Shown here: piece by piece, positions 30,120-45,689 of the stretch
Layout of the letters: the number at the start of each line of letters is the position of its first letter
How positions within the stretch are numbered: the stretch's first letter is position 1
Assembly: GCA_020199905.1 (NCBI GenBank)
Contig: JAIVJS010000011.1
Span: 1-64,000 of the forward strand
Length of the DNA stretch: 64,000 bases
Source of the DNA: Acidobacteriota bacterium
Lineage (GTDB): Bacteria; Acidobacteriota; Thermoanaerobaculia; UBA5066; Gp7-AA6
Direction: 5' to 3'
The notes under the pieces: model-generated
The model's input: the letters and a program-made list of their open reading frames with translations, nothing else
Told to the model about the DNA's origin: nothing
Database searches by the model: none
Program-made: the position numbers and the translations under genes

Positions 30120-31166
30120 TCACTGCACAACCAGGGTTCCCAGCATGAACGTGTGCTGCTGCGGGTCTCCGCCGCAATCGTTGTTGGTGCAGGAGAAGGG
30201 GTGCGCTCCGCGATGAAAAGACTGGGGCGTGAAGACTTCGGTCGTGTAGTCGCGGCCGGGCGAGATCGTGTTGCCGGGGCTCGCGGAGATGCCGATGTCC
30301 GAGATTCCGGAGAAACCATGGTTGGGCAGGGTCGTGCCCGCGGGGTCGACGTTGTGAAACCGCAGCCGGTAGGCGGTGCCGACGTTGACGACCAGCGGCG
30401 GCGCGAACGGACCTCCCGGCGAGAACTCCCATGCCTTGGTGTTGATCGTGATGACCTGCACTCCCGCGGGCGGCGTCGGGGTCGGCGTCGGTGCCGGCGT
30501 CGGCGTGAAACCGGACGTATCGAACTGCCCCGACGGATGCGCGGGATCCTGCGCGTACGTCTTGACGATTCCCGTCGCGTTTTCCTTCACCGACAGGGAG
30601 AAATCCAGATCCGTCATCGTCCCGTAAAACACCCAGTAACCCTGCCCGATCCCGGAGGCGTCCACCATCTTGACGATCAGCTCGGGGTTCCCTGGATTGC
30701 CGGACAGCGTCGGCAGGCTGAAGTAGCCGTACACGTCGTTCTGACCGATCACGACGCCGGACCCGGTCGCGCCGGTGCGCTGGTCGCGCGCCGTCAGCGT
30801 GATGTCGAAGCTGTGCGCCGCGTTCAGGCGGAGGACCCCGGCGGGAGTGACGGTGATCGGCAGCGTCGCGCTTGCCGAGCCCGAGGCGTTGCCCGCGGTC
30901 AGCCGGACGGTGAACGCGCCCGCGGTGGCGAATGCGTGCGCCGGATTGCGCTCGCTGGACCTGCCGCCGTCGCCGAAGTCCCAGCTCCAGGCGGTCGGGT
31001 TGCCCGAAGACGCGTCCGCGAAGGAAACGAGAGAGCCGGCGGCCGGGCTCGGCGTGGAGGCGGTAAAGGCCGCCCCGGGAACGGCCGCGGTCAGACCCAG
31101 AACCGCGCCGAGCGCCAGGAGGCACAGCACGACGGCGCCTCCCCCGTCGAGCCGGACGCGCCGCAT
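30120..31166 (-). CDS. Secreted PKD / cupredoxin-like protein, paralogue 1 (last of three in the operon)
   Basis: A 348-residue exported protein. A signal peptide (about 1-30) leads to a PKD domain (about 35-105, with WSWDFGDGGRSSERNP), then a conserved middle domain (about 110-225, with IGQNDVYGYFSLP, IVKMVDASGIG and YWVFYGTMTD). A Pro-Thr linker follows, then a C-terminal cupredoxin-like domain (about 245-348) with LPNHGFSGI and HPFSCTNNDCGG, and a terminal His/Met region that could bind type I copper. It differs from its two neighbours by an insertion before the last ligands. Start ATG 31166 gives the signal peptide and has AAAGGG upstream. It is probably a periplasmic or surface copper protein; the function of the middle domain is unknown. 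Confidence 0.8.
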   Translation of the reverse strand: MRRVRLDGGGAVVLCLLALGAVLGLTAAVPGAAFTASTPSPAAGSLVSFADASSGNPTAWSWDFGDGGRSSERNPAHAFATAGAFTVRLTAGNASGSASATLPITVTPAGVLRLNAAHSFDITLTARDQRTGATGSGVVIGQNDVYGYFSLPTLSGNPGNPELIVKMVDASGIGQGYWVFYGTMTDLDFSLSVKENATGIVKTYAQDPAHPSGQFDTSGFTPTPAPTPTPTPPAGVQVITINTKAWEFSPGGPFAPPLVVNVGTAYRLRFHNVDPAGTTLPNHGFSGISDIGISASPGNTISPGRDYTTEVFTPQSFHRGAHPFSCTNNDCGGDPQQHTFMLGTLVVQ

Positions 31167-31297
31167 GCCCTTTGGACGACCGCCGGAGCCTTCGAGTTGA
31201 CGCCTCCTTTGGGACCGGGTTGAGAGTGGAGCCTTCGGCGTCGAGCGCCAGCCCCCGGTAACCCTCCCTGGCAACCCCTCCCCGGCCCCGGTCCCCG

Positions 31298-31332
31298 GAC
31301 TCAGGATGGAAAACTGATCACCGAAAACTCTC
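31298..31332. repeat. Heptad tandem array
   Basis: Five 7-bp units (GACTCAG, AACTGAT, AACTCTC and variants). It ends exactly at the stop codon of the second PKD-cupredoxin gene (31333). Confidence 0.75.
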
Positions 31333-32385
31333 TCATCTCACCACCTGAATGACCCCCGTCATGCCGTCGTGGCCGATTCCGCAGCCGGTGTTGCTGCAGC
31401 CGAACGGGTGGAAGCCCACCTGCGCGGCGGTCGGTGTGAACGTCCGGATCACCGCGGCGGCCTGCGGCGGGAGGTTCGTTCCGCTCAGTCCGAGAGCCGG
31501 GATCCCGCTGAAGGCGTGGTCGGCGTTGCCGCGAGCGTCGATGTCCTTGATGTGCAGCTCGTACTTCGTCCCGACTTTCGCGACGAACGCGCTGCCGCCA
31601 TTGTCGAAGTCCCATTGGAACTGTCGCGCGGTGAGAGTCACGACGATCGCGCCGGCAGGTCCGGGGGTGGGCGTCGGGGTCGGCGTGGGACTCGGAGTCG
31701 GCGGCGGATCCTCGGTGACCGGGATCGGCAGGAATCCGGAGGTGTCGAACTGGCCACAGGGCTTCCCCAGGTCTTTCGCGTATCTCTTCACGACGCCTGT
31801 CGCGTTCTCCTTGACCGAGAGCGTGTACTCGAGGTCCGTCATGCATCCGTAGAAGACCCAGTAGTTCTGGCCGATGCCCGTCGCGTCGACCATTTTGACG
31901 ATTACTTCCGGATTGCCCGCGTTGCCCGAGACCGCGGGAATGCTGAAATAGCCGTACACGTCGTTCTGCCCGATCACTTTTCCCGAGCCGGTGTTGCCCG
32001 TCCTCGGGTCGTTCGCCGTCAGGGTCAGGTCAAACGTGTGCGCCGCGTTCAAGCGCAGAACCGTGTCGGGCGTGACGGTGACGGCGAGTGTGGACGTGGC
32101 GGGGCCCGACGCGTTGCTCGCCGTCAAACGGACCGTGAACGCCCCCGGCGCCGCATACGCGTGGGTCGGGCTCTGCGCCGTGGACGTGGTGCCGTCGCCG
32201 AAGTCCCATGCCCACGACGTCGGGCCCCCCGTCGAGGTGTCGGTGAACTGCACGACCGAGTTCGCCGCCGGATTGGGGGTCGAAGCCTGAAAGGACGCGG
32301 ACGGCGCCGTGACGGCGGTGACGCCGGCGAGAATCGAGAGCCCGAAGACGGCGAACATCTTGAGAAGGCCGGAAAAAGGGGTCAT
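31333..32385 (-). CDS. Secreted PKD / cupredoxin-like protein, paralogue 2
   Basis: A 350-residue paralogue of the genes on either side. Order: signal peptide or anchor (1-28), PKD domain with WAWDFGDGTTSTAQSP, middle domain with IGQNDVYGYFSIP, IVKMVDATGIG and YWVFYGCMTD, a (P/T)-repeat linker (TPTPTPTPGP), then the C-terminal cupredoxin-like domain. There, NADHAFSGI offers a His, and FGCSNTGCGIGHDGMTG offers the Cys-His-Met set of a blue-copper site. An extra pair of cysteines (in GCMTD and KPCGQ) is absent from paralogue 3 and could form a disulphide. GAGGCG precedes ATG 32385. The copper assignment is inferred from the ligand pattern. Confidence 0.82.
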   Translation of the reverse strand: MTPFSGLLKMFAVFGLSILAGVTAVTAPSASFQASTPNPAANSVVQFTDTSTGGPTSWAWDFGDGTTSTAQSPTHAYAAPGAFTVRLTASNASGPATSTLAVTVTPDTVLRLNAAHTFDLTLTANDPRTGNTGSGKVIGQNDVYGYFSIPAVSGNAGNPEVIVKMVDATGIGQNYWVFYGCMTDLEYTLSVKENATGVVKRYAKDLGKPCGQFDTSGFLPIPVTEDPPPTPSPTPTPTPTPGPAGAIVVTLTARQFQWDFDNGGSAFVAKVGTKYELHIKDIDARGNADHAFSGIPALGLSGTNLPPQAAAVIRTFTPTAAQVGFHPFGCSNTGCGIGHDGMTGVIQVVR

Positions 32386-32471
32386 AACGCCTCGAGTTGG
32401 ACGACCGGGACGGCGCTCAGGTTCGCGCCGGATCCGGAAACCAAAAAGTTGGACACCATGGGCCGCACCGG

Positions 32472-33536
32472 TCAGTTCACGTGGAGGACGCCGACCATGC
32501 CCGAGTGGCCCGTGCCGCAATTGGGAATCGCGGAGCACGAGAAGGTATACGTTTTCCCGCGCTCGGACAGCGGCGCGGTGAACGTCACCCGGTAAGGCCG
32601 CGGCGGGCTCCCGCCGCCGTAGGGATCTCCCTCGCTTCCGGGGCTGATGTTCGAGGTGCCCGCGATTCCCAGGGCCGGAACTCCCGAGAAGCCGTGCGTC
32701 ACGTCCAGCGCAGTGAAGATGAGGGTCGCCGGCGCCCCCGCGGTCACCTCAATCGGCGACGCGGTCCCCGGCTGGAATCGGAACTGCGAGACGCCGATTT
32801 CGATCGTCTGCGGAGCCGAGCTGCCCGGCGGCGGCGTGGGCGTCGGGGTGGGGAGCGCCGCGCCCGGCGTGGGCGTCGACGCGAAGCCGGTCGTGTCGAA
32901 CTGGCCGGACGGTTTCGCGTCATTCTTCCTGTAGGTCTTGACGACGCCCGTCGCGTTCTCTTTGACGGAGAGCGTGAACTCGAGGTCCGTCATCGAACCG
33001 TAGAAGACCCAGTAGTTCTGGCCGATGCCCGTCGCGTCGACCATCTTCACGATGATCTCCGGGTTTCCCGCGTTTCCCGACAGGGACGGAAGGCTGAAGT
33101 ACCCGTAGACGTCGTTCTGGCCGATCACCTTGCCGGAGCCCGTGTTCCCCGTGCGGGGGTCTCGCGCGGTGAGCGTCAGATCGAACGGGTGCGCTCCGTT
33201 CAGGCGCAGGACGCCGGAATCGGTGACCGTGACCGCGAGCGTTGCGCTCGAAGGTCCCGACGCGTTGGACGCCGTGAGCCGCGCCGTGAAGGATCCGGGC
33301 GCCGCGTACACGTGCGACGGGTTGCGCTCGGTGGAGGTTCCGCCGTCGCCGAAATCCCACGCCCACGACGCGGGTCCGCCGGTCGACGTGTCGGTGAACA
33401 GGATGAGCGACTCGGCGGCCGGGTTTGACGTCGACGCGGTGAACGACGCGCTCGGGGCGGAGGTCGCGAAGATCCCGCCGACGGAGGCGAAAACCGAAAG
33501 GGTGAGAACGGCGAAGAGACTGGCCGTGAAATTCAT
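32472..33536 (-). CDS. Secreted PKD / cupredoxin-like protein, paralogue 3 (first in the operon)
   Basis: A 354-residue protein with the same four-part build: signal peptide (1-28), PKD domain with WAWDFGDGGTSTERNP, middle domain with IGQNDVYGYFSLP, IVKMVDATGIG and YWVFYGSMTD, then a Pro-Thr linker. The cupredoxin-like C-terminus has VTHGFSGV, TFSCSAIPNCGTGHSGMVG and a final beta strand. Cys, His and Met spacing fits a type I copper site. It is separated from paralogue 2 by 86 nt and from 1 by another spacer, all on the same strand. The three-fold tandem duplication, with strong conservation of the middle domain, implies selection on that domain as well as on the copper site. Confidence 0.82.
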   Translation of the reverse strand: MNFTASLFAVLTLSVFASVGGIFATSAPSASFTASTSNPAAESLILFTDTSTGGPASWAWDFGDGGTSTERNPSHVYAAPGSFTARLTASNASGPSSATLAVTVTDSGVLRLNGAHPFDLTLTARDPRTGNTGSGKVIGQNDVYGYFSLPSLSGNAGNPEIIVKMVDATGIGQNYWVFYGSMTDLEFTLSVKENATGVVKTYRKNDAKPSGQFDTTGFASTPTPGAALPTPTPTPPPGSSAPQTIEIGVSQFRFQPGTASPIEVTAGAPATLIFTALDVTHGFSGVPALGIAGTSNISPGSEGDPYGGGSPPRPYRVTFTAPLSERGKTYTFSCSAIPNCGTGHSGMVGVLHVN

Positions 33537-34994: not shown

Positions 34995-35567
34995 TCAACG
35001 ATCTTCCGCTTCATCGGGCCCGCGCCTCGCCCCCGGACGCCCGTGGGACCCGCGCGAGCGCGCCCGGACGCGCGGCTCCGTCCGCGCGCCGTTCTTTCCG
35101 GCTTTCAGGAACAGGAGGAGCCCCACGAGCAGAAACGCGAGCATGGCCTGGAGCGTCAGGAACGACAGGAGCTTCAACCACGCGAATCGCGGATCGACGA
35201 ATCTCACGAGCCACGAGCTTCCCTCTTCGACGAGCGCCGAAAGGAAGGAGGTGGCGATCATGGCGATCTTCGCGCGCCGGGACCAGGGCGCGAAGATCAT
35301 CAGGTGCGTCAGGAGAAGAAGGACGAGAGCCATCATCGGCAGATGGCTGTGCGTCACTTCGAGCATCGCGCCCGCCGTCCGCGGAGCCCGGAAATCCGCC
35401 TCGGACCCGCGGTAGTACGCCCCGATCGAGGCCGGAGTCAGCCCGAGCCGGGACACGAACAGGACGGCGTTCGTGCACCAGAAGCCCGCCAGCAGGAGAC
35501 AGGTGAGCCCGAGGGTCCAGCGCATGAGCTCCTGAGACTGGAATCCGCCGCGCTCCATGTACTTCAT
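34995..35567 (-). CDS. Four-helix membrane protein of the iron operon
   Basis: A 190-residue inner-membrane protein with hydrophobic helices at about 16-38, 76-92, 100-120 and 133-155, and a basic, disordered tail from about residue 158. Three histidines near the second helix (H73 and H75 in VTHSHLP, H88 in LLTHLM) could ligate haem, so a b-type cytochrome role is possible but not proven. I do not recognise a named family. ATG 35567 overlaps the stop of the FMN-binding gene by 4 nt, and the upstream open frame is low-complexity. As the last gene of the fur-apbE operon it may pass electrons from the membrane to the flavoprotein. Confidence 0.72.
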   Translation of the reverse strand: MKYMERGGFQSQELMRWTLGLTCLLLAGFWCTNAVLFVSRLGLTPASIGAYYRGSEADFRAPRTAGAMLEVTHSHLPMMALVLLLLTHLMIFAPWSRRAKIAMIATSFLSALVEEGSSWLVRFVDPRFAWLKLLSFLTLQAMLAFLLVGLLLFLKAGKNGARTEPRVRARSRGSHGRPGARRGPDEAEDR

Positions 35568-36157
35568 GGCGCGGCGGAGAGAACGTGGTGGACCGCGAGA
35601 ACGCGCCGGACCGCGGCCGCGATCGCCCGGGTCGTCAGCGTCGCGCCCGAAACGTGCGCGAGGCCGCGTCCGACCGAGAGCTCGTCGTCCAGGGGTTTCT
35701 TCGAGAAGAGACGCAGCCACGACGGCCGCGGGAGATAGTCCTCGGGCTCCCCGAACGCGACGACCTCGACCTCGCCCGCCGCTCCATCGGGCGTTACGGT
35801 GACGAGAAGGGTCTCCGACGCGGTGCGGACGGGATGGGTGTCGAAGTAGGCCGTCCCCAGGAGTCCCGAAGCGCTGCGGCCCGCGTACGCGACGACGAGC
35901 GAGGACTCGACCTTCGCGCGGGCCTCCCGGCTCGCCCGCTTCCGCTGCTCGGGTGTCAGAGAGAGCGTGCGGCGCTCGATCGTCGCCGGAGACGGAAACG
36001 CGCGGGCCAGAGCCTGATCACGCGTCTCATAGACGGGCGCCGCCGCCACGGGCGCCGCGAAAAAGAGGCACAGCAGGAATCGCCGGGCCGGGCGCCGTTT
36101 GATTCTCTGCCCTTCCCCCTTCGCCGTGCGCCGTGTCGTTCCCCTCAAAACAGCCAC
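35564..36157 (-). CDS. Exported FMN-binding domain protein (flavinylation target)
   Basis: A protein of up to 197 residues. A basic start is followed by a signal peptide (about 26-40, FLLCLFFAAPVAAA) and an FMN_bind domain. Near the C-terminus is HVSGATLTTRA (168-178), the [S/T]GAT motif in which ApbE attaches FMN to the threonine, here T173. The protein should carry covalent flavin in the periplasm. The ApbE gene two positions upstream in the operon supports this. GTG 36157 overlaps the porin 3' end by 13 nt; the exact start is uncertain because no clear ribosome binding site is visible. Its stop overlaps the next ATG. Confidence 0.82.
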   Translation of the reverse strand: MAVLRGTTRRTAKGEGQRIKRRPARRFLLCLFFAAPVAAAPVYETRDQALARAFPSPATIERRTLSLTPEQRKRASREARAKVESSLVVAYAGRSASGLLGTAYFDTHPVRTASETLLVTVTPDGAAGEVEVVAFGEPEDYLPRPSWLRLFSKKPLDDELSVGRGLAHVSGATLTTRAIAAAVRRVLAVHHVLSAAP

Positions 36158-37542
36158 CCGAGCGCGACGTTCCAGCGATCGGTCGAGGAGCGGGCGCGAT
36201 CGTCGAAATCCTGGTAGTCGGCCTTCACCACGATCTGGGGGATCGGCTTGAACTGGAGCCCGAACGTCCAGAGCCGCACGTCGTTTGCGGGGTTGCTGGC
36301 GAACCCGGCAGGCACCCGCTGCTGCGTCCGAAGGCGCTCGTAGCGGAAAAACGGAACCAGCGATGCGTCGCCGCCGCGGAAAAAGAGCACGTCATAGCCG
36401 GCTTCGGCGTAGGCCCCCGAAAAGACCTCCGGCACCGAGCCCTCTCCCGTCAGACCCGCGAGCGCGTTGATCCGGGCGGCGTCGCCGATCGTCCCTCTCG
36501 CGTAAAGAGCGCGCGCCTGAATCCCCCGCCAGCGCCACTCGGCGTGCAGATCGAAGAGCGAGACCCCGCCGCGCAGGCGCCTTCCTTCGATTTCCCGGCC
36601 CTGTCCCGACTCTCCGAAGTATCCGGAGGTTCCGGCGACGACCCCCGGCAACCCGACGTAGTCGAGGCGTCCGGTCACTGCGACGCTCTCCGCGAGCGCG
36701 TTCGAGCCTTCCTGGCGACCGCCCCGGATCGCCTCGCCGGCCGAGAAGCCGGCGGCGTCGAGGCCGCTGACGACGTATCCCCGGTAGGCGAGAGGCCCCG
36801 CCTGCCCGAACACACCGACGCCGAGCTCGCTCCACGTCGAGGGAAGGATCCGCTGTTCGACCTCGGGGCGGCTCGCTCCGAGGAAGACCGGCGGCTCATG
36901 CAGCTCGTTGACGAATCCCATCGGGACCAGGACGAGGCCGGCGCGGACTCCCATGGCGCGGTTCTTTCCGATCAGATAGTCCAGGTACGCGAACTCGACG
37001 GCGACCTCTCCTTTTTCCTCGCTTCCCGCGCCCGTCGACGCGTGCTCGTACTCGACTTCCGAATTGAACAGGAAACGGTCGTCGAACTTGTACCCGAAAT
37101 AAAAGACGGCGCGCAGGAGGTCGACACGGTCGGAGAGGTCGGACATCGTCCCGTCATCCCTCTTCCGCGCGAAATTCTGATAGAGAGCCTCGCCGTATCC
37201 GCCGATCGACGCGCCGTGCTCCGAGCGATAGACGCGCGAGGCCGCCGGCCCCAGACCCGGCACGGAATGGGAGGCGGCCGCGCTCTCCGCGGCCTTCTCG
37301 GGGACGCCCGTCCGCAGCGTCTCGATCTCCCGCGTCAGCGCGTCGATCTGAACCCGAAGCTCCTCGAGCGCGCGGCGGGTCTCTTCGTCTGCCGCCCGGG
37401 AAACCGCGTCGAGCCGCTTCTGAAGCTCTTCGATCTTCGCCTCGAGCTCCCGGGTTTTCTGCTCGGAAGCGGTCTGCGCCGCGAGCGGCGAGGGCCCCGT
37501 CAGAAAAAGGAGGGCCACGGCCAGGCACGCGATTCTCTTCAC
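36145..37542 (-). CDS. Outer-membrane porin-like protein with N-terminal coiled coil
   Basis: A 465-residue protein. A signal peptide (1-22, ending PLAAQ) is followed by a heptad-rich coiled coil (about 26-78: ELEAKIEELQKRLDAV...) and a beta-barrel domain of alternating hydrophobic strands. It ends in an aromatic residue (ALGWLF), as outer-membrane proteins require. The coiled coil followed by a barrel resembles trimeric phosphate or iron-regulated porins of other diderms. The substrate is not known. ATG 37542 overlaps the apbE stop by 4 nt. Its place in a fur-led operon suggests a role in passing an iron source across the outer membrane. Confidence 0.82.
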   Translation of the reverse strand: MKRIACLAVALLFLTGPSPLAAQTASEQKTRELEAKIEELQKRLDAVSRAADEETRRALEELRVQIDALTREIETLRTGVPEKAAESAAASHSVPGLGPAASRVYRSEHGASIGGYGEALYQNFARKRDDGTMSDLSDRVDLLRAVFYFGYKFDDRFLFNSEVEYEHASTGAGSEEKGEVAVEFAYLDYLIGKNRAMGVRAGLVLVPMGFVNELHEPPVFLGASRPEVEQRILPSTWSELGVGVFGQAGPLAYRGYVVSGLDAAGFSAGEAIRGGRQEGSNALAESVAVTGRLDYVGLPGVVAGTSGYFGESGQGREIEGRRLRGGVSLFDLHAEWRWRGIQARALYARGTIGDAARINALAGLTGEGSVPEVFSGAYAEAGYDVLFFRGGDASLVPFFRYERLRTQQRVPAGFASNPANDVRLWTFGLQFKPIPQIVVKADYQDFDDRARSSTDRWNVALGWLF

Positions 37543-38624
37543 GAATTCCCCCGGTCCGCCGCCGCGGGCGGCGTTTCCGCCCAGGAGCCGAGCCGCCTCC
37601 AGGCCCGGCTGGCTCGGCGGGCGCCCGACGCCTCCACGAAAAACGCCGCAATGCTCCGGGCATCGGCGAAGGCGAGTCCGGCGTCGGGGCCCATTACGAA
37701 AAGCGCGGTCGAAAGCGCATCGGCGCGCAGGCCCGCGGCCGCGAAGACGCTCGCGGAGCCGTGAAACGAGGCCGCGCGGCCGGTGCGCGGGTCAATCAGG
37801 TGGCCCGGCTGCTCCGCATCTCCCGAAGTCGACAGCGACCCGTCGGGGATTTCGACGCGTGAGACCACGCATCCCGACGCGTCGGGCGCCGCGACGGCGA
37901 CGCGCCCATAACCCCCCGTCCGGCCGGCGGGCGTCGCCGAGCCGAACACGAGGATCTGTCCGCCAAAATTGAGGCGGGCGCTTTCGACACCGCCGGCGCG
38001 CAAGGCGGCAGCGGCCGCGTCGAGGCCCTCCCCTTTTCCGAACGCGCCCGAATCGATCGCCGTCTCTGCCGAGTCGAACGCGAGCGTGCCTCTCTCGGGG
38101 TCGAAACGAGCGTGACGGTACCCGATGGAGGCCAGCACGGCCGCGGCGGGGTCCTGGTTGCGGTCGGCGGGAGTCGAGACGAGCTTCGAGATCGTAATGG
38201 CGCCGACGGTGGGATCGAACGCCCCGCCGGTTTCCTCGGCGAGGGCGAAGGCGGCGGAGAGGCTTCCCCAGGTCTCGGGCGAAAGCGTAAACGGGCTCCG
38301 CCCCGCGGCGCGATTGGCCCGCGAGAGCTCGGACGCCGGCGACCAGTTCGAGAGACGGCTCTCGACCCGACCGACGGCCGCAAACGCTCTCTCGACGGCC
38401 GCCTCGAGGGAGGACGCGGGAAGAGGACCCGCCGCGTCGATCTCGAGGACGGTGCCCATCCGGTACTGAACGCGCCGCACGGACGGCCGGGCCCGGCCCG
38501 CGGAGGCGGCTCGCGGCGGCAGGGCCGCGGCCGTGGCGAGAACCGCGCCGCCAAGACAGAGACTCAGTCTCAACGCGATCCGGCTCCGCGGCGCCGGCGA
38601 GACTCGAGAGGAGGGCAACGTCAC
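37539..38624 (-). CDS. apbE: FAD:protein FMN transferase
   Basis: A 361-residue exported ApbE enzyme that transfers FMN from FAD to a Thr of FMN-binding proteins. After a signal or anchor segment (about 12-32), the catalytic domain has YRMGTVLEIDAAG, GAFDPTVGAI, and AIDSGAFGKGEGLDAAAAAL (the family usually has DLGGIAKGYA here). The end carries SGDAEQPGHLIDPRTGR and ALSTALFVMGPD, the Mg/FAD site. GTG 38624 forms a GTGA overlap with the fur stop, which fixes the start. A 13-bp perfect palindrome, GAGACTCAGTCTC, lies in its first codons (38559-38571) and resembles the Fur-box candidate upstream of fur. The likely substrate is encoded two genes downstream. Confidence 0.9.
   Translation of the reverse strand: MTLPSSRVSPAPRSRIALRLSLCLGGAVLATAAALPPRAASAGRARPSVRRVQYRMGTVLEIDAAGPLPASSLEAAVERAFAAVGRVESRLSNWSPASELSRANRAAGRSPFTLSPETWGSLSAAFALAEETGGAFDPTVGAITISKLVSTPADRNQDPAAAVLASIGYRHARFDPERGTLAFDSAETAIDSGAFGKGEGLDAAAAALRAGGVESARLNFGGQILVFGSATPAGRTGGYGRVAVAAPDASGCVVSRVEIPDGSLSTSGDAEQPGHLIDPRTGRAASFHGSASVFAAAGLRADALSTALFVMGPDAGLAFADARSIAAFFVEASGARRASRAWRRLGSWAETPPAAADRGNS
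38559..38571. promoter_or_regulatory. Palindrome inside apbE resembling the Fur-box candidate
   Basis: GAGACTCAGTCTC is a perfect 13-bp palindrome. It shares a 14-base identity (GACTCAGTCTCAAC) with the site at 39164-39180. It could be a second Fur site or chance within coding DNA. Confidence 0.3.
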
Positions 38625-39136
38625 GCCGTCGGAAGAATGCGGAGCTTCCCGCCCGGCACGGCCGCCGCCGCCGCCGCCCGCCCGGCCTCGCGCGAGCTGA
38701 CCCGAGGACGGCACTGCCGGCAGATTCCCCTCAGCTGGTGGCTGTGGGATAGCGCCAGGAAACCGTACTTCTCGCAGACCTGGTCCTGGAGGCTCTCGAT
38801 GGCGGGCTCGAAGAACTCGATCACCCGTCCACACTCATTGCAGATCAGGTGGTCGTGGTGCTCCCCCGCCCGGAGGCGCTCGTAGCGATAGCCCGATTCG
38901 CCGATCCGGACGCGGCCGACGATCCCGGAATCGACGAGCAGGTCGAGTGTGCGGTAGATCGTGGCGCGCGAGATCTTCTTGTGCTTGGTCCGAAGCCGCA
39001 CGAGCAGCTCGTCGGCCTCGAAATGCTCGTGGCGGGCGAAGAGCTCATCGAAGAGGGCCTGCCGCTCCGACGTCAGCTTCAAGCCCCGCTTTTCGAGGTA
39101 CTTCCTGAAGATGCTCAGTTCGCGGTGCGGCTTCAT
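38621..39136 (-). CDS. fur: Ferric uptake regulator family repressor
   Basis: A 171-residue metalloregulator. The winged helix is at about 10-85 (LTSERQALFDELFARHEHFEADELL, then ISRATIYRTLDLLVDSG), and the dimerisation and metal domain follows with GEHHDHLICNECGRVIEFF and CRQC, giving the zinc Cys pairs and His ligands. The tail after about 150 is Ala-rich. ATG 39136 has GGGGAGG just upstream; the longer open frame adds unrelated residues. It is the first gene of a five-gene operon, and a Fur-box-like palindrome lies 28 nt upstream. Autoregulation and control of the divergent FTR1 gene are therefore likely. PerR or Zur specificity cannot be excluded from sequence alone. Confidence 0.9.
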   Translation of the reverse strand: MKPHRELSIFRKYLEKRGLKLTSERQALFDELFARHEHFEADELLVRLRTKHKKISRATIYRTLDLLVDSGIVGRVRIGESGYRYERLRAGEHHDHLICNECGRVIEFFEPAIESLQDQVCEKYGFLALSHSHQLRGICRQCRPRVSSREAGRAAAAAAVPGGKLRILPTA

Positions 39137-39163
39137 GCGCCCTCCCCGGCGAAGAATATGCGA

Positions 39164-39180
39164 TTGCGACTCAGTCTCAA
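39164..39180. promoter_or_regulatory. Candidate Fur box between fur and the FTR1 gene
   Basis: TTGCGACTCAGTCTCAA is a 17-bp inverted repeat (8-1-8, one mismatch). It fits the 7-1-7 Fur pattern TGA.A.T.A.T.TCA in spacing and ends. It lies midway between the divergent starts (39136 and 39239), next to CATATT and GTATTC, which are possible -10 boxes on either strand. Confidence 0.6.
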
Positions 39181-39238
39181 CTGGCGTATTCTTCCGCTCC
39201 CGGACGGCCGCTGTCAAGCCGGCAAGGAGCACAGAGCC

Positions 39239-40021
39239 ATGTGGCAGGGATTCACGATCGCGCTGCGAGAGGGGATCGAGGCGTTCCTCATCGTCGCGCT
39301 CATCCTGTCTTATTTGAGGCGGACCGGCCGGATCGGCCTGGCCCGCGCCGTCTACTCCGCGACCGCCGTGTCCGTGGTCACGTGCTTCGGGGCCGGCCTC
39401 CTCTTCTCGAAGGCCGCGAACCAGTCGCTCTGGGAGGGCATTCTCGCGCTCGTCGCCGCCGCTCTCGTCGGAAGCCTTCTCGTCTACATGAAGCGCGTTT
39501 CCTCCCGCCTGAAGAGCGACATCGAATCGCGTGTGGCGGCCCGGACCGCCGGGGCCACGGGGACGGGCGCGTTCTGGGGCGTCTTCGCTTTCACGCTGAT
39601 GATGATCACCCGCGAAGGGATGGAGACGGCGCTTCTCATCTCGACTGCGCTCTTCCAGCTGAAGTCCTCGGCCGTTCTTCTCGGCCTCGGTCTCGGCATC
39701 CTCGCCGCCGCGGGGATCGCCTTAGCCTGGACCCGTCTCGGCCGGGGCGTCGACATCCGCGGCCTCCTGAACGTCTCGTCGGTCTTCCTGCTGATCTTCC
39801 TGGTTCAGCTGGTCCTTTACGGCGTCCACGAGCTCTCGGAGGCCCGGATTCTCCCCGCCTCGCAGGCCGTGCACGACGCGACGGAGATCCTGGGGCCGGA
39901 CGGCCTCGTCGGCCACATCCTCGCGTACGCGCTCGCCATCGTCCCGACGGTCTGGCTCGCCAGTCTCTGGCTGCGGCGCCGCGCGGCGGCTCACGTGGCG
40001 GATGCCGGAAAAGCGGCCTGA
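39239..40021 (+). CDS. FTR1/EfeU family iron permease
   Basis: A 260-residue inner-membrane protein with about seven helices. The two REXXE iron-binding motifs are REGIE (helix 1, near residue 10) and REGME (helix 4, near 130), the hallmark of FTR1/EfeU iron permeases. In yeast FTR1 takes Fe(III) from a multicopper oxidase; bacterial EfeU works with EfeO and EfeB, neither of which is encoded here. ATG 39239 has AAGGAG upstream. It is divergent from the fur operon across the Fur-box candidate, so the flavoprotein system of that operon is the best candidate for its redox partner. Confidence 0.92.
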   Translation: MWQGFTIALREGIEAFLIVALILSYLRRTGRIGLARAVYSATAVSVVTCFGAGLLFSKAANQSLWEGILALVAAALVGSLLVYMKRVSSRLKSDIESRVAARTAGATGTGAFWGVFAFTLMMITREGMETALLISTALFQLKSSAVLLGLGLGILAAAGIALAWTRLGRGVDIRGLLNVSSVFLLIFLVQLVLYGVHELSEARILPASQAVHDATEILGPDGLVGHILAYALAIVPTVWLASLWLRRRAAAHVADAGKAA

Positions 40022-43376: not shown

Positions 43377-45689
43377 CTAGAATCGCACCTCGAGACCTCC
43401 GGCCCATCGGCGTCCGGGCGCGGGGTATCCGTCGACCTCCGCGTACGCCCTGTCGGCGAGATTCTCCATCCGCACATAGGGCGCGAACAGCCCGGCGCGA
43501 TACCGCGCGAAGAAGTCGATCCGCACGTATCCTGGATCTCGGACCCGCTCCCGGGTGAGCGCGTCGAAGTCGGCGCGCGGACCGACGAGCGCCGCGCGCG
43601 GCGACAGATCGAGACCGGGAAGGGGCTCGATCGTGAGGCCGACCGACGCGGAGTTGCGCGCCCTCCGGATCAACGGGAGCCCGGTCTCGCGATCGCGAGC
43701 GTCGAGGTACCGATAGCTCGCGTCCGCCGCCAGCCCCGAGGTCAGAGGCTGCCGCCACGCGATCTCCAGGCCTCGAGTCCGCGCGCGCCCCACGTTGAAG
43801 TTCTGAAATCGCGAAAAGTCGTACACGATCAGGTGGCGGAAGTCGTTCCAGAACAGGGAGAGCTCGACGCGGCCGGAACCGGCCTGGCTCTCGACTCCCG
43901 CGTCGAACGAGGTGGACCGCTCGGGCTGCAGGGCCGGATTGCCCGAGAAGGGGTAATACAGCTCGCCGACCGACGGCGCCCGAAATCCGGTGCCGGCGGA
44001 GGCGCGCAGCTTCCAGCCGCCGGCGCGCCAGGCCATCGTCGCGCGCGGGCTCCAGGCGGCGCCGTACTGGGAGTGGCGGTCGTAGCGCAGCCCGGCGGTC
44101 ACGATCGCCGCGCCGAGCCGAACCGAGTCTTCCGCGCCGACGTGCCACAGCGTCGCGCGTGCTCCGTCCAGGTTCGAGCCGAAGTTCGAGGCATCGTCTA
44201 CGGTCCAGCGTTCCCAGCCCCCGAATCCCGTCACCGTATGAGCGCCCGCGACGAAACTGTCGGAGACGCGCCCCTGAAGCGTCCGGGCATCCGTGTCGGA
44301 ATGAAAACCCGGCGTGTCGTACGAGGGACGCGACGAGGCGAAACCGAGCACGACGGCGGCGGTGTGCCCCTCCGCCGGGTGGAAGGTTGCGGGAAGCGAG
44401 ATGCGTTCCTCCCTCGGGTGATAGCGATCCCGGGGAGACTCCGCTCCGACGGGCCCGGGGAGGCCCAGCTCTCCGTCCGAGATGGCGCCCTCGAGCGCGA
44501 CGTGAAGGCCGTCAGAGAAACGGCCCTCGAGACGCACGGAGCCGGACCGTTCGCGCCAGTCGTCGTTGGCCCGGTCGCCGTCGGAGCGATGGTCCCGAAA
44601 ACTCGCCGCGACGCCCCAGGGACCGGTCCCGCCCGTGGCAAACGCGGTCTCCTCGCGCAGCCGCGCGTTACCGGTTTCGGCGGAGACGCGCCCGGAGAGC
44701 TTTCCGGAGGCGGGGCGCGTGAAGATCTGGATGACGCCGCCGAGCGCGTCGGAACCGTACAGCGCGGAGAACGGGCCGCGGACGATTTCGATCCGGTCGA
44801 CGTTCTCGGTGCTCTGAAGCGCGAAGTCGTACCCCGGGAAAAACGGAGAGTTGACGCGCACACCGTCGACGAGCACGAGCGCGTGCGTCGAGTTGGATCC
44901 CCGCAGAAAGACGGACGTCTGCGAGCCCGGACCGCCGGAGCCCAGAACGTCGACCCCCGGGACCGATCGCAGAGCGTCGGAAACCGTCCTCCAGCCGTTG
45001 CGCTCGATGTCTTCGCGGAGGACGACCGTCGCCGCCGTGCCCAGGTCCTCGCGCTCCTCCGGAGCGGCCGTCGCGGTCACGACGACCGCTTCGGAAACGG
45101 GCGCGGGCACCGGTCCCGCGGGCTGCCCGATCGCATGCCCGCTGACGAACACCAGCCCGAGCGACAGCACGGCCGCGGTCCTCACGGCGCGCACCGCGCC
45201 GCGCCGCGAGAGCGCGTCGAGGCCGAAGAGCATGGCGGTCCCCGCCAGATCCGCCAGAAGCGTGTTCCAGAACCAGGGGATGGCCGCGATGTAGCAGAGC
45301 GCGAGACCGGCAAGGGTCCTGGGGTACGTGTCGAACTGGAGCCAGTTGGCGAAGTTCGTCGCCAGGAAGAAGAAGACCGCGGACCCTCCCGCCAGAGCCG
45401 CGAGCCGCAACGGCCCGGCCGCGGAAGCCGCCAGGCGCCCCGCGAGAACGGTGAGAAGGAAGCAGCCGTACACGGCGGCGCGGATCGGCGTGATCGCTTC
45501 GCGCCCGGTCCCGAGATCCAGAACGAGGTCCGAGAGCGCGAGCGCGAGAACGGGGACCACGAAGGCGAGGCCGCGGGGAAGGCGGGCCCCCGCGTAGAGG
45601 GCGATGGCTCCGAGAGCCACGGCGTTCGGTGGATGCGGGAGAAGCCGGGACAGGGCGCCGAGTAAGGTGAGCAGGACCGCGATCGTCAT
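43377..45689 (-). CDS. btuB: Fusion: DUF6580 membrane domain + BtuB-like TonB-dependent cobalamin receptor
   Basis: A 770-residue open frame with two parts. Residues 1-160 are a DUF6580-type inner-membrane protein (SRLLPHPPNAVALGAIALYAGA, SDLVLDLG, TNFANWLQFDTYPRTLAGLA), about five or six helices. Without a stop, residues 166-189 read as a signal peptide (VRTAAVLSLGLVFVSGHAIG). A TonB-box-like SEAVVVTAT, a plug (about 213-320, VFLRGSNSTHALVLVDGVRV) and a 22-strand-type barrel ending in VRF follow. GGGAGG precedes ATG 45689 and no stop lies between the parts. GTG 45185 could start a normal receptor, but it has no ribosome binding site. The cobalamin riboswitch and the adenosyltransferase gene support cobalamin as substrate. 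Confidence 0.86.
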   Translation of the reverse strand: MTIAVLLTLLGALSRLLPHPPNAVALGAIALYAGARLPRGLAFVVPVLALALSDLVLDLGTGREAITPIRAAVYGCFLLTVLAGRLAASAAGPLRLAALAGGSAVFFFLATNFANWLQFDTYPRTLAGLALCYIAAIPWFWNTLLADLAGTAMLFGLDALSRRGAVRAVRTAAVLSLGLVFVSGHAIGQPAGPVPAPVSEAVVVTATAAPEEREDLGTAATVVLREDIERNGWRTVSDALRSVPGVDVLGSGGPGSQTSVFLRGSNSTHALVLVDGVRVNSPFFPGYDFALQSTENVDRIEIVRGPFSALYGSDALGGVIQIFTRPASGKLSGRVSAETGNARLREETAFATGGTGPWGVAASFRDHRSDGDRANDDWRERSGSVRLEGRFSDGLHVALEGAISDGELGLPGPVGAESPRDRYHPREERISLPATFHPAEGHTAAVVLGFASSRPSYDTPGFHSDTDARTLQGRVSDSFVAGAHTVTGFGGWERWTVDDASNFGSNLDGARATLWHVGAEDSVRLGAAIVTAGLRYDRHSQYGAAWSPRATMAWRAGGWKLRASAGTGFRAPSVGELYYPFSGNPALQPERSTSFDAGVESQAGSGRVELSLFWNDFRHLIVYDFSRFQNFNVGRARTRGLEIAWRQPLTSGLAADASYRYLDARDRETGLPLIRRARNSASVGLTIEPLPGLDLSPRAALVGPRADFDALTRERVRDPGYVRIDFFARYRAGLFAPYVRMENLADRAYAEVDGYPAPGRRWAGGLEVRF

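Follow-up and report, generated by a model that had tools for sequence, protein, structure and literature searches.

A Fur-led flavinylation operon beside an FTR1 permease in an Acidobacteriota bacterium: a candidate system for reductive iron uptake

The window described here is a 64,000-nucleotide stretch of DNA from an Acidobacteriota bacterium (assembly GCA_020199905.1, contig JAIVJS010000011.1). Its minus strand carries a five-gene operon in the order fur, apbE, porin, flavin mononucleotide (FMN)-binding protein and four-helix membrane protein, running from 39136 to 34995. An FTR1 permease gene is transcribed in the opposite direction from 39239. Open reading frames (ORFs) and Pfam matches define this arrangement, which consists of the following features.

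38621-39136, minus strand: fur, a Fur-family repressor of 171 amino acids that leads the operon (PF01475, 4e-32)
37539-38624, minus strand: apbE, flavin adenine dinucleotide:protein FMN transferase, with a GTG start (PF02424, 2.7e-51)
36145-37542, minus strand: 16-stranded outer-membrane porin with an N-terminal coiled coil (AlphaFold model and structure alignment)
35564-36157, minus strand: FMN-binding protein (PF04205) with an SGAT flavinylation site
34995-35567, minus strand: four-helix membrane protein with conserved H73, H75 and H88, a putative transmembrane electron donor (AlphaFold model)
39239-40021, plus strand: FTR1/EfeU-type iron permease (PF03239, 9.8e-26), divergent across the operator
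39165-39179: TGAGACTGAGTCGCA, an operator of the Fur 7-1-7 type in the gap between fur and FTR1, at most one mismatch away from TGAGACTNAGTCTCA
38558-38572: second operator TGAGACTGAGTCTCT inside the 5' end of apbE (signal-peptide region), also with at most one mismatch to that pattern
39186-39217, minus strand: promoter-like TTGACA ... GAATAC upstream of fur, read by eye

Successive genes of the operon overlap by 4, 4, 13 and 4 nucleotides (fur/apbE, apbE/porin, porin/FMN and FMN/four-helix), in agreement with the initial annotation. The 13-nucleotide overlap presupposes that the FMN protein starts at GTG 36157. If the start were instead TTG 36148, the overlap would shrink to 4 nucleotides (TTGA), and all four junctions would then read NTGA. 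Pfam profile searches of the genome (3.9 Mb, 92% complete) found one match each for ApbE, FMN_bind, FTR1 and FUR, all of them at this locus. Matches to FeoB_N are weak in this genome (best 56 bits) whereas the true FeoB proteins of relatives score 157-191 bits, and for this reason they were taken as other GTPases.

ApbE-dependent flavinylation can be recognized by an ApbE gene together with an FMN-binding substrate that carries [S/T]GA[S/T], and both are found here. The SGAT of the FMN protein ends at T173 when numbered from GTG 36157, as first annotated. The PF04205 match lies at the edge of detection: one scan scored it at 21.9 bits, just short of the cutoff of 22, and another at 23.6 bits, above the cutoff. 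A profile of the protein family also matches RnfG chains (7.6e-8). The permease has the two REXXE motifs of FTR1/EfeU proteins, REGIE10 and REGME125.

The porin of the window has no Pfam porin match, and a divergent member of its family (locus L027) matches PF07396. The AlphaFold model of the window porin has 16 strands (pLDDT, the model's per-residue confidence, 85.9), and the nearest fold is that of OprO/OprP, with a VIA-align Z of 26.6 to OprO and a root-mean-square deviation of 3.2 over 309 residues. OprO and OprP are anion-selective channels. Judging from the model, a porin of this kind would suit anionic ferric chelates as its cargo.

The four-helix protein belongs to no family in Pfam or NCBIfam. 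Its AlphaFold model consists of four helices (pLDDT 80). On helix 2, at the end predicted to face the periplasm, an HxH motif occurs in all 43 aligned members, and 39 of the 43 have a third histidine 13 residues further on. Five distant members (L028, 4613-5431; L145, 3315-4205; L164, 8019-8786; L165, 426-1295; L166, 1535-2257) have the haem-c motif CxxCH in the periplasmic loop between helices 1 and 2, just before HxH. This is an independent sign of redox work. HxH and the third histidine probably form the core of a membrane protein that binds two haems or oxidises quinol.

Searches beyond sequence families gave no closer relative. A profile search of the PDB with the family found no match, and structure comparison of the model found generic helical bundles only (best VIA Z 9.4; no Foldseek hit with E of 0.001 or less). 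A plasmid search with the protein gave no match either. With no match in Pfam, NCBIfam or the PDB profile search, the protein falls outside the five described classes of transmembrane donor, which are NapH-, MsrQ-, PepSY-, DsbD- and NQR/RNF-like.

Evidence for iron control is provided by the operators. The site between fur and FTR1, where the initial annotation had placed a Fur box, is a 15-bp Fur-type palindrome lying just downstream of the promoter-like TTGACA ... GAATAC, and operator and promoter are conserved in the same arrangement in the sister genome (G002, locus L013). It and the site inside apbE are the sole sites in the genome with at most one mismatch to the pattern. When two mismatches are allowed, a third site appears elsewhere in the genome and a reversed control pattern gives two sites per strand, so only the stricter pair is used.

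The same operator can be found in relatives. Gene starts at 43 loci, with the KSB1 phylum represented only by L011, were taken from a simple codon-usage gene caller written for this analysis and scanned from -150 to +100. The pattern TGANAN5TNTCA is present at the start of 21 of 35 apbE genes, 8 of 11 fur genes and 2 of 3 feoA genes. It is absent from all porin (35), FMN (41) and four-helix (43) starts, and only 10 of 437 other genes have it. Fisher p-values are 4e-20 for apbE and 2e-10 for fur, both overstated because the rows are related. Variants include the classical-looking TGATAATCGTTATCA (L079, L084) and TGAGACTCAGTCTCA; in L017 the latter coincides in part with the start codon called for apbE.

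Since a number of the boxes lie over codons of apbE, the operator there might merely echo the codons of the signal peptide. This is disfavoured, because the apbE box fits the noncoding fur or feoA box of the same genome: over nine genomes, picked because both boxes were found, the pairs differ at 25 positions in total against 43 in shuffled pairs (p 5e-5, a value that takes no account of relatedness). The operator is also kept in same-order relatives whose operon lacks fur (L014, L015, L017, L018 and L019). Therefore, on the sequence evidence, iron control seems to be a property of the block itself.

Conservation of the block was followed with the four-helix protein as query. Eight of 60 near relatives match, the window's own genome included, and a scan of named genomes added two metagenome-assembled genomes of Elusimicrobia and one of KSB1. 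A profile of the family matches 34 of 340 Elusimicrobiota genomes (27 at E<1e-60), 19 of 82 KSB1 genomes (16 at E<1e-50) and 15 of 396 sampled genomes of the window's own phylum. The counts of neighbouring genes that follow concern the 55 relatives' loci with a strong match: 12 from the own phylum, 27 from Elusimicrobiota and 16 from KSB1, with the window excluded. Weak matches were left out (L028, L029, L103-L107, L143-L146 and L162-L166), as were three more that had no wide region (G468, G488 and G217).

The FMN protein adjoins the four-helix gene in 54 of the 55 loci, a porin is nearby in 48 and apbE in 32; several of the absences are contig ends. The conserved block can thus be described as porin, FMN protein and four-helix protein, frequently accompanied by apbE, in three phylum-level groups. 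An iron regulator or permease is found near it in 22 loci (one in the own phylum, 12 in Elusimicrobiota, nine in KSB1), counted within 6.5 kb on the strand of the block, with FTR1 accepted on either strand.

The partners of the block differ between lineages. The full arrangement of fur-apbE-porin-FMN-four-helix with a divergent FTR1 occurs in the window and in L013, from the same family. Without FTR1 as a requirement, the five-gene order is found in 11 of the 27 Elusimicrobiota loci; in L010 and L080 feoA and feoB precede fur and a cation/Ca exchanger gene follows the block, and in L099 FeoB stands ahead of apbE. In KSB1, three loci (L011, L129, L138) read porin-FMN-four-helix-DtxR-FeoA-FeoB, L139 does likewise with a PepSY_TM gene in between, and L128, L130 and L137 have FeoB directly after the four-helix gene. 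One more KSB1 locus, L133 (3881-9475), has FTR1-FtrD, two FtsX/MacB genes and an ATP-binding cassette (ABC) gene, followed by the FMN and four-helix genes.

The block is thus conserved well beyond this genome, and the exact six-gene set with FTR1 turned up in this genome and G002 only. Elsewhere the permease is FeoB or none is adjacent. FTR1 was dropped as a candidate for a conserved partner, since this genome, L013 and L133 are the only places where it adjoins the block.

In a tree built from the joined porin, FMN and four-helix proteins of 49 loci, the three phylum-level groups separate mostly by lineage. The window falls within its own order (99/99), and L027, L143 and L144 have long branches. 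A recent horizontal transfer of the block between phyla is unsupported by this tree; because the groups follow lineage, the pairings with importers and regulators came about in separate lineages and not by one recent spread.

Two further arrangements were seen among the relatives. In one Elusimicrobiota branch (L082, L088, L095, L098 and L102), genes for TetR, DsbA-like, mandelate racemase-like and mostly AhpC/TlpA-like proteins recur upstream of apbE. In the Elusimicrobiota loci L103-L106, a membrane protein is followed by a four-helix protein, an unnamed protein, ApbE and an FMN protein; the scan of L103 gave this membrane protein Hpre_diP_synt_I and CbiQ domains, by which it resembles an energy-coupling factor (ECF) transporter for flavin supply.

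The best explanation of the locus, and a fairly probable one, is a Fur-repressed cassette for assimilatory iron reduction. Its electron donor is most likely one that is absent from the published flavinylation classes. That relatives retain the cassette and exchange the importer and the switch suggests that it collects iron by reduction. FeoB is an importer of ferrous iron, so several partners of the block need Fe(II). Taken together, the Fur, DtxR and operator evidence makes iron regulation of the operon well supported at the level of sequence.

Under iron shortage, Fur would come off both operators, the one at fur/FTR1 and the one in apbE. The OprO/OprP-like porin would then admit small and perhaps anionic ferric chelates through the outer membrane. 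In the periplasm, the FMN protein would carry FMN attached by ApbE to the threonine of its SGAT motif, and the four-helix protein would supply this flavin with electrons taken from the quinone pool. The flavin would in turn reduce Fe(III) to Fe(II). Finally, the iron would enter through the permease encoded next to the block, which is FTR1 here and FeoB in relatives. The proposed tie between the flavinylation operon and iron thus agrees with conservation and with the regulators and operators, as far as sequence reaches; the electron path of that proposal is one that we infer.

Several observations weigh against iron reduction. No iron gene is nearby in 33 of the 55 loci, some of which lie at contig ends, and apbE is found near none of the 16 KSB1 blocks. 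Of the 43 FMN proteins, 24 carry the strict [ST]GA[ST] motif; in the remainder AGAT and AGAS predominate, with TGSS in two proteins and NSS in L099. No structure match to a cytochrome was obtained for the four-helix protein. FTR1 permeases elsewhere can handle ferric iron together with an oxidase, so that FTR1 by itself is no proof of reduction. Membership of the Fur family alone can also be compatible with PerR- or Zur-like sensing; NCBIfam Fur equivalog models outscore the PerR and Zur models on this protein, with all of them below their cut-offs. Lastly, TetR, TlpA/AhpC-like and DsbA-like genes lie upstream of apbE in a subset of Elusimicrobiota, and SCO1/SenC lies downstream of the block in others. 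Some relatives thus have thiol-redox genes and no permease beside the block, and a portion of the family may act in thiol redox or in periplasmic redox more generally.

This last point leads to an iron-sparing redox module, in which a Fur-controlled flavoprotein would substitute for haem-based periplasmic electron carriers under iron scarcity and feed thiol reduction or respiration instead of iron uptake. The thiol-redox and SCO1/SenC neighbours, the haem-c motifs of distant four-helix members and the many loci without an adjacent iron gene all agree with such a module, and flavin use in iron-poor settings has been suggested in the available part of a survey of flavinylation (PMC8238504). However, FeoA-FeoB, FTR1 and DtxR stand directly in the operon in separate lineages, and the conserved porin would be superfluous for a purely periplasmic carrier. 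An iron-sparing module is rather unlikely.

Alternately, the porin and FMN protein may export electrons to minerals, as a flavin analogue of porin-cytochrome complexes. A single operon does hold a porin, a periplasmic electron carrier and an inner-membrane donor, and the distant members in L103-L106 occur with apbE, an FMN protein and the ECF-type membrane protein. The porin model, however, is an ordinary 16-strand OprO/OprP-like barrel, and known electron-conduit porins are much wider. Since assimilatory permeases and control by Fur or DtxR better match uptake, extracellular electron transfer is very unlikely here.

Oxidative import, in which the flavoprotein and four-helix protein would oxidise Fe(II) for FTR1 as Fet3 does for yeast Ftr1, would explain an FTR1 partner in two lineages, but relatives employ the Fe(II) importer FeoB and flavin potentials in general favour Fe(III) reduction, which leaves this scheme highly improbable. 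That fur and FTR1 are chance neighbours of an unrelated flavinylation operon fits the confinement of FTR1 adjacency to this family and one KSB1 locus, but it can be set aside almost entirely: the recurrence of the block in 55 loci, the shared order with fur in 11 of 27 Elusimicrobiota loci and the operators at apbE already contradict it.

The assimilatory reading can be extended. The four-helix HxH protein may found a further class of transmembrane donor, and porin, FMN protein and donor may form a portable reductive cassette in at least three phyla, which takes its importer (FTR1, FeoAB or FTR1-FtrD/ABC) and sensor (Fur or DtxR) from the lineage and carries a Fur operator over the apbE start. 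This broader claim is about evenly poised. So far, ferric reduction by envelope flavins has been proposed mainly from clusters with PepSY-, MsrQ- and P19-type partners. If the claim is true, reductive iron uptake relies on a separable module that brings a porin along and works with interchangeable importers and regulators, an unnamed protein family gains a function, and iron acquisition is explained in little-cultured lineages. The reading predicts haem in the four-helix protein, FMN on the named threonine and Fur binding at the two sites.

The genes around the operon were also considered. From 40 to 46 kb, Pfam identifies a family-less protein, Diphthami_syn_2, Cob_adeno_trans and a DUF6580-TonB receptor; as the initial annotation had stated, the scan of these genes found no efeO or efeB beside FTR1. 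The receptor ORF (43377-45689, minus strand) is an unusual fusion of an N-terminal DUF6580 membrane domain with a complete TonB-dependent receptor, plug and barrel. It adjoins the cobalamin adenosyltransferase gene and may be a receptor for cobalamin, unless a reading error has merged two genes. On the other side, 30120-33536 (minus strand) encodes three similar secreted proteins in tandem, with a PKD domain in both that were scanned (31333-32385 and 32472-33536). Rfam gave no match over 34.9-41.4 kb.

Many elements of the locus have counterparts in known systems. In the available part of the survey of ApbE flavinylation systems (PMC8238504), which describes the five donor classes named above, ApbE and a motif-bearing FMN protein likewise occur with a membrane protein and sometimes with nearby iron transporters, and links to iron are given for VIT1, PepSY/Fur and P19-FTR1. 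Unlike those systems, the block has a membrane component that lies outside Pfam and outside all five classes, and it comes with a porin of its own and with FeoB or DtxR as partners. FeoB, Elusimicrobia and Acidobacteria matched no mention in the main text of that survey.

The DUF4405/FezC cytochromes are also small membrane proteins with conserved histidines that are tied to flavinylation or iron, and FezC has been proposed to bind haem as a homodimer (PMC11334425, as far as that source was available). The protein of the block differs in having no DUF4405 match in Pfam, and in its four helices with HxH and one histidine on helix 2. By analogy, it may likewise be a haem-binding homodimer.

In P19-FTR1 and FetMP-FetABCDEF (PMC8238504 and PMC10783030, in the parts available), an FTR1 permease is combined with a periplasmic redox protein, and the FMN and four-helix genes of L133 occupy the place of the FetEF thioredoxins. 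In contrast, no P19 was matched among the genes scanned at 34-46 kb (no search for it covered the remainder of the genome) or among the scanned neighbours of L133, and the FTR1 of the window has no ABC genes beside it. EfeUOB shares the permease with two REXXE motifs and differs by its efeO and efeB, which are not adjacent here. The OprO/OprP porins share the 16-strand fold, whereas the block porin has 13-16% identity to them and an N-terminal coiled coil.

An experimental precedent for a link between flavinylation and iron can be found in Bifidobacterium breve. There the FMN-binding protein SifE, whose gene adjoins an FTR1 system, affects growth under iron chelation, as does an apbE mutant (PMC5449479, in the part available). 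Extracytosolic flavinylation systems are known, and the literature searched, with most subscription papers outside its reach, gave no description of this gene set, in agreement with the initial annotation, which knew of such systems but not of this exact set. Because the four-helix family lies outside the described classes and the set was not found in print, the novelty is the undescribed donor together with a dedicated porin, within an already known kind of system, flavinylation-based iron assimilation.

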